64,000 nt of DNA from Nocardioides flavus (ex Wang et al. 2016) (GTDB lineage Bacteria > Actinomycetota > Actinomycetes > Propionibacteriales > Nocardioidaceae). The position numbers were made by a program, and so were the translations under genes. Positions within the stretch are counted from its first letter, which is position 1. Every line of letters starts with the position of its first letter. This document shows, piece by piece, positions 11,830 through 63,125 of the stretch. The stretch lies in assembly GCF_014653115.1 (NCBI RefSeq), contig NZ_BNAD01000016.1:1-64000 (forward strand), read 5' to 3'. The notes below the pieces were generated by a model. That model was not told where the DNA came from. It saw only the letters and a program-made list of their open reading frames with translations, and searched no databases.

Positions 11830-12432
11830 TCAGTCGGTCCCGGCCGGCCAGGACTGGGGGAAGTCGTCGGCGGAGGCGTCGTGCTTCTTGCCCAGCCGCT
11901 TGCGGGACTTGGCCGAGAGCCGGTCGCCGAAGACGGTGCCGAGGGTGTGGTCGGTCTCGTGCTGGAGACAGCGCGCGAGGAGCCCGCTGCCCTCGAAGGT
12001 CACCGGCTCGCCGTCGAGGCCGAACCCGTCCACGCGCGCGAAGTCGGGCCGTGGGCAGGGCTCGAAGGAGCCGGGGAACGACAGGCAGCCCTCGTCGTCG
12101 TCGTCGAGGCGGCGGTCCTTGCCCTCGGGCAGCGTCAGCACCGGGTTGCAGACGACACCGACCGTGCGCACGCCCTCGTCGTCGGGGCAGTCGAAGACGA
12201 ACATCGCGACGTCCTCCCCGACCTGGCACGCCGCGAGTCCCACGCCGTCGGCGGCGTACATCGTGGCGACCATGTCGGCGGCCAGCGAGCGCAGCGCCTC
12301 GTCGTACGTCGTGACCGGTGCCTGCGGGCGGTGCATCACGGGCGTGCCCCACCGGGTGATCGCGCGGACCGTGCCACCCTCGGGAAGGAGGCCGTGGGGC
12401 GCGTGAGGCTCAGTGGTCTCGTCGTCTGGCAT
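11830..12432 (-). CDS. def: Peptide deformylase
   Basis: A 200-residue metalloenzyme that removes the N-formyl group from nascent proteins. All three family motifs are present in order: GVGLAACQVG, EGCLSFPG (metal-binding Cys) and QHETDHTLG (HExxH-type metal ligands and catalytic Glu). The C-terminal tail is Lys/Asp-rich, as in actinobacterial enzymes. ATG 12432 is chosen over a longer frame to 12474 because TAGGAT ends 7 nt upstream and the extra residues would run into the neighbouring promoter. The RNA methyltransferase gene follows. Confidence 0.95.
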   Translation of the reverse strand: MPDDETTEPHAPHGLLPEGGTVRAITRWGTPVMHRPQAPVTTYDEALRSLAADMVATMYAADGVGLAACQVGEDVAMFVFDCPDDEGVRTVGVVCNPVLTLPEGKDRRLDDDDEGCLSFPGSFEPCPRPDFARVDGFGLDGEPVTFEGSGLLARCLQHETDHTLGTVFGDRLSAKSRKRLGKKHDASADDFPQSWPAGTD

Positions 12433-12439
12433 GCGGGCG

Positions 12440-12445
12440 ATCCTA
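12440..12445 (-). promoter_or_regulatory. -10 hexamer TAGGAT, leaderless promoter of def
   Basis: On the minus strand TAGGAT ends 7 nt before the ATG at 12432. Confidence 0.5.
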
Positions 12446-12494
12446 ACGAGGAGGCGATGGGTGACCGGCAGCACGGGCGGACCTCTGGCGCGGG

Positions 12495-12514
12495 CTGTAA
12501 CTCGGAGTTACAGT
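12495..12514 (+). promoter_or_regulatory. Perfect palindromic operator overlapping the -10 of the acyl-CoA dehydrogenase operon
   Basis: CTGTAACTC-G-GAGTTACAG (12495-12513) has perfect 9-bp arms around one base, the size and shape of a TetR-family operator. Its right arm overlaps TACAGT (12509-12514), a -10 hexamer ending 6 nt before the ATG at 12521. Bound protein would block the promoter. A fatty-acid-responsive TetR repressor is an inference from the genes controlled. Confidence 0.7.
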
Positions 12515-12520
12515 TTCCGC

Positions 12521-13882
12521 ATGTCCCTGATGAACAACCTCCGACCCGGCGGTCGCCACGGGTTGTCCTCCCGCGAGGCCCGCGACCCGATCGGCTTCGC
12601 CGTCGCCGCGGTCAACCGGCTCGCGCAGAGCGAGCTCATCGACCGGGTCGGTCTGCGCAAGCAGACCGAGCAGGTCGTCTACTCCGCGACCCGCAACGGG
12701 TTCCGGGTGGCGACCGCGGCGGGGCGGCAGTTCGCCCGGGCGGGACGGCGCACTGCCGGCGCGCGGCCGGCCTCCGCCCGCTCGCGTGGCGTCTTCGACC
12801 TGACCCCGACCGACGACGAGGCCATGCTGCTCGAGGTCGTCCGGGAGCTCGCCGACGAGCTGCTCCGGCCCGCTGCCGCCGATGCGGACGCTGCCTGTGC
12901 GGCTCCCGAGCCAGTCCTCGCCGCGGCGCAGGAGGTCGGACTCCCCGGCCTCGGTGTGCCCGAGGAGCTGGGCGGGATCATGGAGGAGCGCTCGGCGATG
13001 GCCGGCGCCCTCGTCGCCGAGGCGCTCGCCCGCGGCGACATGGGCCTCGCCGTCGCCACGCTCGCCCCCGGTGCGGTCGCCACGGCGATCGGCCTGTGGG
13101 GGACCGAGGCCCAGCAGCAGACCTACCTCCCGGCCTTCACGGGGAGCGACGTGCCGGTCGCGGCGCTGACCCTCGCCGAGCCCACGGTGCTCTTCGACCC
13201 CTTCGCGCTGTCCACCACCGCGCGGCGTGACGGCGACGGCTTCGTGCTCGACGGCCTCAAGTCCGCCGTCGTCCGCGGCGCCGACGCCGAGCTCTTCGTC
13301 GTCGCAGCCATGCTCGAGGGCGTGCCGGCACTCTTCCTCGTCGAGTCCGGCACCGAGGGGCTGGAGGTGGAGGCCGACCCGTCGATGGGCATCCGTGCTG
13401 CCGGCCTGTCCCGCCTGCACCTCACCGGCGTACGCGTCGGTGCGGATGCCCTGCTCGGGGACACCGAGGGCACGGCGCACCGCGAGTGCGTACGACTCTC
13501 CCGGCTCGCGTGGTGCGCGCTGGCCGTGGGCACCGGCCAGGCAGTGCTCGACCACGTCACCGACTACGTCAACGGGCGGGAGGCCTTCGGCGAGCCCATC
13601 AGCCACCGCCAGTCCGTGGCGTTCATGGTCGCCGACATCGCCATCGAGCTGCAGGCCATGCGGCTGGTGACCTGGAAGGCCGCGTCGCGCGCCGCCCGCG
13701 GCGAGGACTTCGCGCGCGAGGTGGGACTGGCCCGTCAGCTCTGTGCGGAGAAGGGGATGCGCATCGGCCTCGACGGCGTCCAGCTCCTCGGCGGCCACGG
13801 GTTCGTCAAGGAACACCCGGTCGAGCGGTGGTACCGCGACCTGCGGGCCGTCGGAGTCATGGAAGGTGCGGTGCTGCTCTGA
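12521..13882 (+). CDS. Acyl-CoA dehydrogenase (FadE24-like)
   Basis: A 453-residue flavoprotein for alpha,beta-dehydrogenation of acyl-CoA. About 100 N-terminal residues (NRLAQSELIDRVGLRKQTEQ and an Arg/Ala-rich stretch) precede the dehydrogenase fold. The C-terminal domain shows REAFGEPISHRQ, QLLGGHGFVKEHPVERWYRD and a terminal VMEGAVLL, whose Glu is at the position of the usual catalytic base. Length and its order before a 404-residue partner recall the mycobacterial fadE24-fadE23 pair, from memory. The ATG at 12521 is leaderless and sits behind the palindromic operator. The protein ends almost directly after the catalytic Glu. Confidence 0.8.
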   Translation: MSLMNNLRPGGRHGLSSREARDPIGFAVAAVNRLAQSELIDRVGLRKQTEQVVYSATRNGFRVATAAGRQFARAGRRTAGARPASARSRGVFDLTPTDDEAMLLEVVRELADELLRPAAADADAACAAPEPVLAAAQEVGLPGLGVPEELGGIMEERSAMAGALVAEALARGDMGLAVATLAPGAVATAIGLWGTEAQQQTYLPAFTGSDVPVAALTLAEPTVLFDPFALSTTARRDGDGFVLDGLKSAVVRGADAELFVVAAMLEGVPALFLVESGTEGLEVEADPSMGIRAAGLSRLHLTGVRVGADALLGDTEGTAHRECVRLSRLAWCALAVGTGQAVLDHVTDYVNGREAFGEPISHRQSVAFMVADIAIELQAMRLVTWKAASRAARGEDFAREVGLARQLCAEKGMRIGLDGVQLLGGHGFVKEHPVERWYRDLRAVGVMEGAVLL

Positions 13883-15096
13883 TGATCAACCTCGAGACCC
13901 CCCGCAAGCACGCGGGCCTCGTCGACCAGGCCCACCAGCTGGCGATGAACATGCTGCGCCCGATCTCGCGCAAGTACGACCGCGCCGAGCACACCTATCC
14001 CAAGGAGCTCGACATGCTCGCGGCGCTGATCGACGGCGTGTCCGAGACCGGCGCGACCGGCGGGGCAGGTGCGGGCGGCGTACGACGTGAGACCTCCTCA
14101 GAGGAGCCGGGCACGGTGCGCAACGGCGCCAACCTCGCCTCCGTGCTCTCGGTGGCCGAGATGTGCTGGGGCGACACCGCCCTTCTGCTCTCGATGCCGC
14201 GCCAGGGCCTGGGCAACTCCGCCATCGCCTCGGTGGCCAACGAGGAGCAGCTCGAGCGCTACAAGGGCACCTGGGCAGCGATGGCCATCACGGAGCCCGG
14301 CACCGGGTCCGACTCCGCCAACATCACGACCACGGCCGTCAAGGACGGCGACGAGTACGTCATCAACGGGGAGAAGATCTACGTCACCTCCGGCGAGCGC
14401 GCCGACTCCGTGGTGGTGTGGGCGACCCTCGACAAGGAGCTCGGCCGGGCCGCCATCAAGTCCTTCCTGGTCCGCAAGGACAACCCGGGGCTCACGGTGG
14501 AGCGGCTCGAGCACAAGCTCGGCATCCGCGCCTCCGACACCGCGGCGATCACCTTCACCGACTGCCGGGTGCCGGCCGAGGACCTGCTCGGCTCCCCCGA
14601 GATCGACACGAAGTCGGGCTTCGCCGGTGCGATGGCGACCTTCGACAACACCCGCCCGCTCGTGGCTGCGATGGCGGTGGGGTGCGCCCGCGCCTCGCTC
14701 GACCTCACGCGCGACCTGCTCGAGCAGGCGGGGGTCGTGATCGACCACGACCGCCCGCCGCAGTCGCAGAGCGCCGCCGCGGCGACGTTCCTGCGGCTCG
14801 AGGCCGACTGGGAGGGCGCGAAGCTGCTGATGATGCAGGCCGCGTGGATGGCGGACAACCGCTTGCCCAACTCGCTCGAGGCGTCGATGGCCAAGGCGAA
14901 GGCCGGCCGGGTGGGCTCCGACGTCACGCTGTCCTGCGTGCAGCTGTGCGGCACCCTCGGCTACAGCGAGGCCGAGCTGCTGGAGAAGTGGGCGCGCGAC
15001 TCCAAGATCCTCGACATCTTCGAGGGCACCCAGCAGATCCAGCAGCTGATCGTGGCCCGCCGGATCCTGGGCCTGACCAGCGCCGAGCTTCGCTGA
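13882..15096 (+). CDS. Acyl-CoA dehydrogenase (FadE23-like)
   Basis: A 404-residue acyl-CoA dehydrogenase. Visible features are the FAD/substrate loop MAITEPGTGSDSANI, GEKIYVTSG, KLGIRASDTA, and the C-terminal DIFEGTQQIQQLIVARR with the catalytic Glu of the EGT motif. An Ala/Gly-rich insertion with GGAGAGGVRRETSSEEPG lies near residues 60-75. Its ATG shares one base with the preceding stop (TGATG), so the two dehydrogenases are translationally coupled and may form a heteromer, as proposed for related FadE pairs. Confidence 0.85.
   Translation: MINLETPRKHAGLVDQAHQLAMNMLRPISRKYDRAEHTYPKELDMLAALIDGVSETGATGGAGAGGVRRETSSEEPGTVRNGANLASVLSVAEMCWGDTALLLSMPRQGLGNSAIASVANEEQLERYKGTWAAMAITEPGTGSDSANITTTAVKDGDEYVINGEKIYVTSGERADSVVVWATLDKELGRAAIKSFLVRKDNPGLTVERLEHKLGIRASDTAAITFTDCRVPAEDLLGSPEIDTKSGFAGAMATFDNTRPLVAAMAVGCARASLDLTRDLLEQAGVVIDHDRPPQSQSAAAATFLRLEADWEGAKLLMMQAAWMADNRLPNSLEASMAKAKAGRVGSDVTLSCVQLCGTLGYSEAELLEKWARDSKILDIFEGTQQIQQLIVARRILGLTSAELR

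Positions 15097-57473: not shown

Positions 57474-63125
<5,652 letters not shown>

Follow-up and report, generated by a model that had tools for sequence, protein, structure and literature searches.

A conserved palindrome over the predicted leaderless promoter of an acyl-CoA dehydrogenase operon in Nocardioides, probably the operator of a TetR-family repressor

The stretch of DNA analysed here, which we call the window, comprises 64,000 nucleotides (G000:C16:1-64000; 72.7% G+C, from a genome of 4.18 Mb) and carries a pair of overlapping acyl-CoA dehydrogenase genes with a divergent peptide deformylase gene upstream (Table 1). A perfect palindrome had been claimed to lie in the promoter of the pair and to overlap its -10 element, and both parts of that claim hold: CTGTAACTCGGAGTTACAG stands at 12495-12513, and TACAGT falls in its right half. 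The extent originally given, 12495-12521, is right in its start, while its end belongs to the first gene, position 12521 being the A of the ATG. Since only TTCCGC, a gap of six bases, separates TACAGT from this ATG, the promoter is predicted to be leaderless. Further upstream, the conserved TGTRGCGC element occupies the position expected of a -35; it likewise resembles an additional half-site, set 12 nt upstream, an offset equal to the half-site spacing seen at a thiolase gene (see below). Another sequence in this region, GTGACCGGCAGCACG at 12461-12475, may be a CRP-like site; a GTGA(C/G/T) motif occurs 35-36 nt 5' of the operator core in 79 of 142 orthologous promoters, the fuller form TGTGA-N6-YCAC in only 24 of them.

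Table 1. Features of the promoter region and of the genes on either side (window coordinates)
Feature	Position	Strand	Remarks
Operator palindrome CTGTAACTC-G-GAGTTACAG	12495..12513	none	Seen in the sequence and in orthologous promoters
Operator core TGTAACTNNNAGTTACA	12496-12512		Kept in 142/142 orthologous promoters read
Predicted -10, TACAGT	12509-12514	+	Overlaps right half of operator; TACATT or TACAGT in 137/142 promoters
Upstream element TCTGGCGC, consensus TGTRGCGC	12484..12491	+	Well conserved columns, -12 to -5 before the core, 142 promoters
First acyl-CoA dehydrogenase, fadE24-like (P0001, 453 aa)	12521..13882	+	ATG at predicted +1
Second acyl-CoA dehydrogenase, fadE23-like (P0002, 404 aa)	13882..15096	+	TGATG start/stop overlap with first gene
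Peptide deformylase	11830..12432	-	PF01327, 135 bits
-10-like TAGGAT of the deformylase gene	12440-12445	-	Separate from the operator

Perfect 9-bp arms are by themselves ordinary in this window, and the distinctive feature of the palindrome is its A/T content. Palindromes with arms of at least 9 bp and spacers of 0-3 nt number nine in the window, where 20 first-order Markov sequences averaged 4.9 (range 0-11). When at least five A/T per arm are demanded, a condition chosen after the operator palindrome had been seen, the window retains only this palindrome and an 18+3+18 repeat at 59979-60017, and the 20 Markov sequences retain none. With up to three mismatches allowed, the palindrome occurs once in the window and in 0 of 100 shuffles; a composition estimate puts the expectation for the 14-base core at 2.5e-6 per 64 kb and 1.6e-4 per genome. 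To call it the most perfect palindrome in the window was a slight overstatement, as it is exceeded in length by the 18+3+18 repeat and by two palindromes whose arms measure 10 bp. The former is a perfect inverted repeat with no T run, situated between convergent genes, one (presumably pheT, which it resembles) ending at 59960 and the other, on the minus strand, at 60044; it is possibly a bidirectional terminator.

The site is highly conserved. Scored as the best match in each promoter stretch, the core is present in all 142 promoters of orthologous first dehydrogenases (FadE1) that were read, exactly in 126 and with one mismatch in 16, whereas the reversed core never came within fewer than four mismatches of the same stretches. 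These promoters come from 140 of the 141 Nocardioides genomes with FadE1 and from two further genomes, G187 and G190; G130 was left out because the N-terminus is missing from its FadE1 match. Of the 14 specified core columns, ten reach 2.00 bits and the other four 1.67-1.89, although part of the conservation in the right half is due to the -10 element that overlaps it. The spacing is conserved as well, with the core 8 nt from the ATG in 111 promoters and 9 nt in 31. Operator, -10 and predicted leaderless start share about 27 bp in an arrangement kept through the genus. A search of the genus with up to two mismatches matched 140 of 147 genomes (three of 147 for the reversed-pattern control), and an orthologous dehydrogenase gene lies just 3' of the site in 27 of the 29 listed loci from other genomes. 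Two fadE sites (G047, G110) have a C in one half, and two fadE promoters (G036, G115) carry TGTAACTAGCAGTTAC(C/G). Additional matches in G034, G140, G083, G067 and G014 were not counted as operators, as they resemble dispersed, REP-like repeats; TGTAAC(A/C)CTTAGTTACA repeats are dispersed over several contigs in G034 and G014, and match counts are high in the other three genomes too.

Beyond the genus, the exact core was found in 22 of 394 genomes drawn across the class, all of them among the 37 members of the window's family and none among the 357 others. In two of the 22 (G402, G528) it precedes a secretory lipase gene, not fadE. Of three FadE1 promoters in genus g2, two have no more than a variant form, TGCAACTCACAGTTACA, which lies further upstream, and the third (G163) has none. 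Two tandem palindromes of the operator type precede a secretory lipase gene at L083 and L084 (near 1501), in two genomes of another genus of the family.

Within its own genome the palindrome stands by itself, as the only match to TGYAACTNNNAGTTRCA within one mismatch; the next-best places have three mismatches to a narrower pattern. The original prediction had suggested searching the genome for further copies upstream of other lipid genes and of a TetR gene, and no such site turned up, our regulon search returning the fadE operator only. Uniqueness coupled with lack of conservation had been named as the outcome that would speak against an operator; the former is what we found, and the latter is contradicted by the 142 promoters. 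Two places with three mismatches, one 5' of an ECF-type sigma factor gene and the other between Lsr2 and Clp ATPase genes, were rejected as support. Before an ECF-type sigma factor gene at G000:C2:309132 (L048, near 3001) we noted CGTAACTCGAAGTTACTCACGGGTTCACA; L034 and L045 have a similar sequence at the equivalent position.

In the intergenic region between a thiolase gene and a divergent short-chain dehydrogenase gene (both by Pfam) of the window's genome, TGCAACT occurs twice, 12 nt apart, followed by GAGTCCA. At least one TGYAAC half-site lies upstream of the thiolase gene in 10 of 10 genomes of the same clade, a count that comes without a chance baseline, and thiolase upstream regions contain both T and C forms of the half-site. 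Possible further targets, each with a site in few relatives only, are genes for a flavin monooxygenase, a short-chain dehydrogenase and, in two genomes of another genus, a secretory lipase (Pfam).

The thiolase gene also points to a regulator, as several relatives have a TGCAACTNNNAGTTGCA palindrome in the promoter of a TetR-family gene that adjoins it. Of 80 named loci of this tetR gene, 52 have TGYAACTNNNAGTTRCA with at most two mismatches near the start of the gene (27 exactly), compared with 0 of 79 control windows, the best of which had three mismatches; TGYAACNNNNNGTTRCA is present in the tetR promoter of 25 of 30 listed loci. The two kinds of site differ at the third base, which is T at fadE (TGTAAC) and mostly C at tetR (TGCAAC). 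The tetR palindrome is not universal. None of eight genomes from the clade of the window has it, nor has any of the 21 named loci closest to the window's TetR; elsewhere in the family 9 of 11 tetR loci from other genera lack it, and within the genus so do G018, G036 and G115. At those 21 loci tetR no longer neighbours the thiolase gene, and the window's genome has the two genes on different contigs. The fadE operator has been kept through the genus while tetR moved and, in one clade, lost its own site.

A second family of the order provides an instance in which both sites have changed together. In genus g4, the FadE1 promoter reads TGTAAC(T/C)TC(G/A)GTTTACAG, with an altered right half, in 13 of 13 genomes (17 have FadE1, of which the other four gave no locus), and the tetR orthologue of the same 13 genomes is in every case preceded by TGTAAC(T/C)NNCGTTTGCAC. 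Such a joint alteration is what a single shared regulator would predict. Exact TGTAACTNNNGTTTRCA has 21 matches in these genomes, 12 before FadE1, nine before tetR and none elsewhere, where about 0.06 were expected by chance and the control gave 0; since this pattern was built from the sites that it found, the weight lies on the shared alteration and on the lack of matches anywhere else.

In the window's genome this regulator is encoded at C17:5251-5967, outside the window. Genome comparison supports the original prediction of a trans-acting TetR-family repressor, and the gene that it singles out likely encodes the repressor for the fadE operator. It is the only full-length match to this TetR in the genome, scoring 405 bits where the next match reaches 47; no close paralogue was found there, the six other TetR matches being weak. 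Orthologues of the TetR and of FadE1 each occur in 141 of the 147 genomes of the genus, together in 140, and five genomes have neither while each is found alone in one. One assembly, G031, which is 84% complete, yielded FadE1 with its operator and no TetR. We rejected the shared absence as proof of a link, as the five genomes without both may be distant lineages and common ancestry confounds the comparison.

The candidate belongs to the TetR family by its domain and, judging from the model of a close orthologue, by its fold over the whole length. The helix-turn-helix domain PF00440 (TetR_N) scores 61.1 bits in the protein of the window's genome and is also found in P0003, the orthologue from G055, and in 20 of 20 orthologues scanned. 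The best 80 of the 222 confirmed relatives are labelled Nocardioides, Marmoricola, Nocardioidaceae or, once, Actinomycetota. For the N. ganghwensis orthologue, which is 92% identical to the candidate, the AlphaFold model shows a TetR fold throughout (pLDDT 88.4); in a structure comparison the best Z was 18.9 over 190 residues, and 831 of 1000 chains reached Z of at least 8. Its Foldseek matches include FasR, FadR, BkaR and KstR2, along with TetRs that have unrelated ligands. P0003 reached the cut-off of no named NCBIfam regulator model, the best score being 49.9 bits against 250, and had no match in plasmids at 1e-20.

Taken as a whole, we consider it probable, at roughly 80%, that the palindrome is the operator of this TetR-family repressor and that the repressor controls beta-oxidation in Nocardioidaceae. 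What we observed is the site with its position and conservation, the sister sites at tetR and their joint alteration in a second family; binding, repression and the ligand are inferred. A TetR dimer would occupy TGTAACTNNNAGTTACA, mask the -10 of the leaderless fadE promoter and so stop initiation at the start codon; that it would repress is suggested by the operator covering the -10. A fatty acyl-CoA or a related intermediate of beta-oxidation would probably release the protein, an effector suggested by the targets, a dehydrogenase and a thiolase, and in agreement with the structural neighbours. The same TetR probably acts on the half-sites before the beta-oxidation thiolase gene and, in the many lineages where tetR lies beside that gene, on its own promoter as well.

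The arrangement could also involve two regulators, a different TetR-type repressor binding the TGTAAC form at fadE while the TetR linked to the thiolase gene is restricted to the TGCAAC form of its own sites. We regard this as unlikely, even though the third base differs systematically between fadE and tetR sites and the T in the left half of the fadE site is 99% conserved with no promoter element on that strand requiring it. The six weak TetR matches in the window's genome could supply a second protein, and according to PMC10501769 fadE23 and fadE24 of M. tuberculosis are raised when another TetR gene, rv0158, is deleted. A strict division by the third base is hard to reconcile with the thiolase regions, which have both forms, and with the C in one half of the fadE sites of G047 and G110. 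The weak matches, moreover, include no close paralogue of the candidate, and in g4 the altered half GTTTRCA is common to fadE and tetR sites, with the exact pattern nowhere else in 13 genomes. That one regulator serves both sites is the reading we retain.

Its sign of action is a related issue, as FasR, one of the top structural neighbours, is named an activator in NCBIfam, and the protein at the fadE site might activate or have a dual role. An activator sits poorly with a site that covers the -10 itself, which favours repression, and we find such a role quite improbable. Least credible to us is that the palindrome needs no repressor and merely represents back-to-back -10 elements of a bidirectional promoter for the fadE pair and the deformylase gene. 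TACA does occur on both strands of the palindrome, and it is about 60 bp to the start of the divergent gene, but the deformylase gene has its own TAGGAT close to its ATG, and the conserved inner CT...AG bases lie outside any -10. Palindromes of this type also occur before tetR, where by eye the sister palindrome lies 5' of a -10-like element, and, as a tandem pair, ahead of a secretory lipase gene in two other genomes. A repressor operator remains our preferred interpretation of the palindrome.

The resemblance of the gene pair to mycobacterial fadE24-fadE23, proposed from the outset, is supported by genome comparison rather than by direct alignment with the H37Rv proteins. When P0001 was searched against another 28 genomes from the class, 11 matched, ten from family f7 and one from f48, and none of the 17 from other families. 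In all ten genomes of f7, a family taken to be Mycobacteriales, the first gene has an orthologue at 52-59% and the second is adjacent at 61-66%. Named records show the same adjacent pair, and hisN, which we take to be the same gene as impC, is found directly 5' of it in Tsukamurella and three genes 5' in a Rhodococcus plasmid. The order in M. tuberculosis is impC (Rv3137)-pflA-fadE24-fadE23, as stated in a part of PMC2834668.

Where these loci differ is in the operator. A different palindrome, TTACTCNNGAGTAA or something close to it, stands in all ten f7 upstream regions and was also found at the loci of Nocardia farcinica, Rhodococcus sp. DN22 and Tsukamurella tyrosinosolvens, and in 6 of the 13 fadE-pair loci (L424-L436) it is doubled, 21-25 nt apart. 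Searched for in their strict forms, both palindromes are missing from the f48 promoter, and the N. farcinica operator stretch matched only itself and one chance sequence among plasmids. Perhaps TTACTCNNGAGTAA is the same switch with drifted specificity. A TetR switch on operons of the fadE24-fadE23 type could then be ancient in actinobacteria, its operator having drifted to TGTAACTCNGAGTTACA in Nocardioidaceae, TGTAACTNNNGTTTRCA in the sister family and TTACTCNNGAGTAA in Mycobacteriales, a tentative scenario that we find rather doubtful; the effect of deleting rv0158 implies that a different TetR may act on the M. tuberculosis pair. Should the regulators prove orthologous, our results would offer an operator for fadE24-fadE23 throughout the class, and a route to its repressor. 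The different palindrome in the probable Mycobacteriales makes the control of this operon a concrete question.

For Nocardioides, a genus with steroid-degrading members according to PMC7593942, the outcome is a testable candidate repressor of fatty acid degradation with a defined operator, targets and gene. Among the papers listed by searches of the open-licence PMC library, we recognised no description of this operator. The type of switch is a known one, a beta-oxidation regulon of the TetR/FadR kind, of which this is a new member. Like FadR of Bacillus and Thermus and PsrA of Pseudomonas, it combines a TetR fold with a palindromic operator at the promoters of beta-oxidation genes for acyl-CoA dehydrogenase and thiolase; Bacillus FadR is among the Foldseek matches, in one entry with stearoyl-CoA. 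Thermus FadR and Pseudomonas PsrA are TetR-family, acyl-CoA-responsive repressors of fatty acid degradation, and the operator sequences of FadR and PsrA differ from that of Nocardioides. Closer in taxonomy are KstR, KstR2, BkaR and FasR of mycobacteria, which are likewise TetR regulators from actinobacteria that act in lipid or acyl-CoA metabolism, and structural neighbours of the candidate, with targets that differ from its own. P0003 falls below the cut-offs of both the KstR model (21.7 against 280) and the FasR model (41.8 against 330). Palindromic motifs, as described for KstR, KstR2 and BkaR in a part of PMC4482099, are a further trait that the Nocardioides switch has in common with these regulators.
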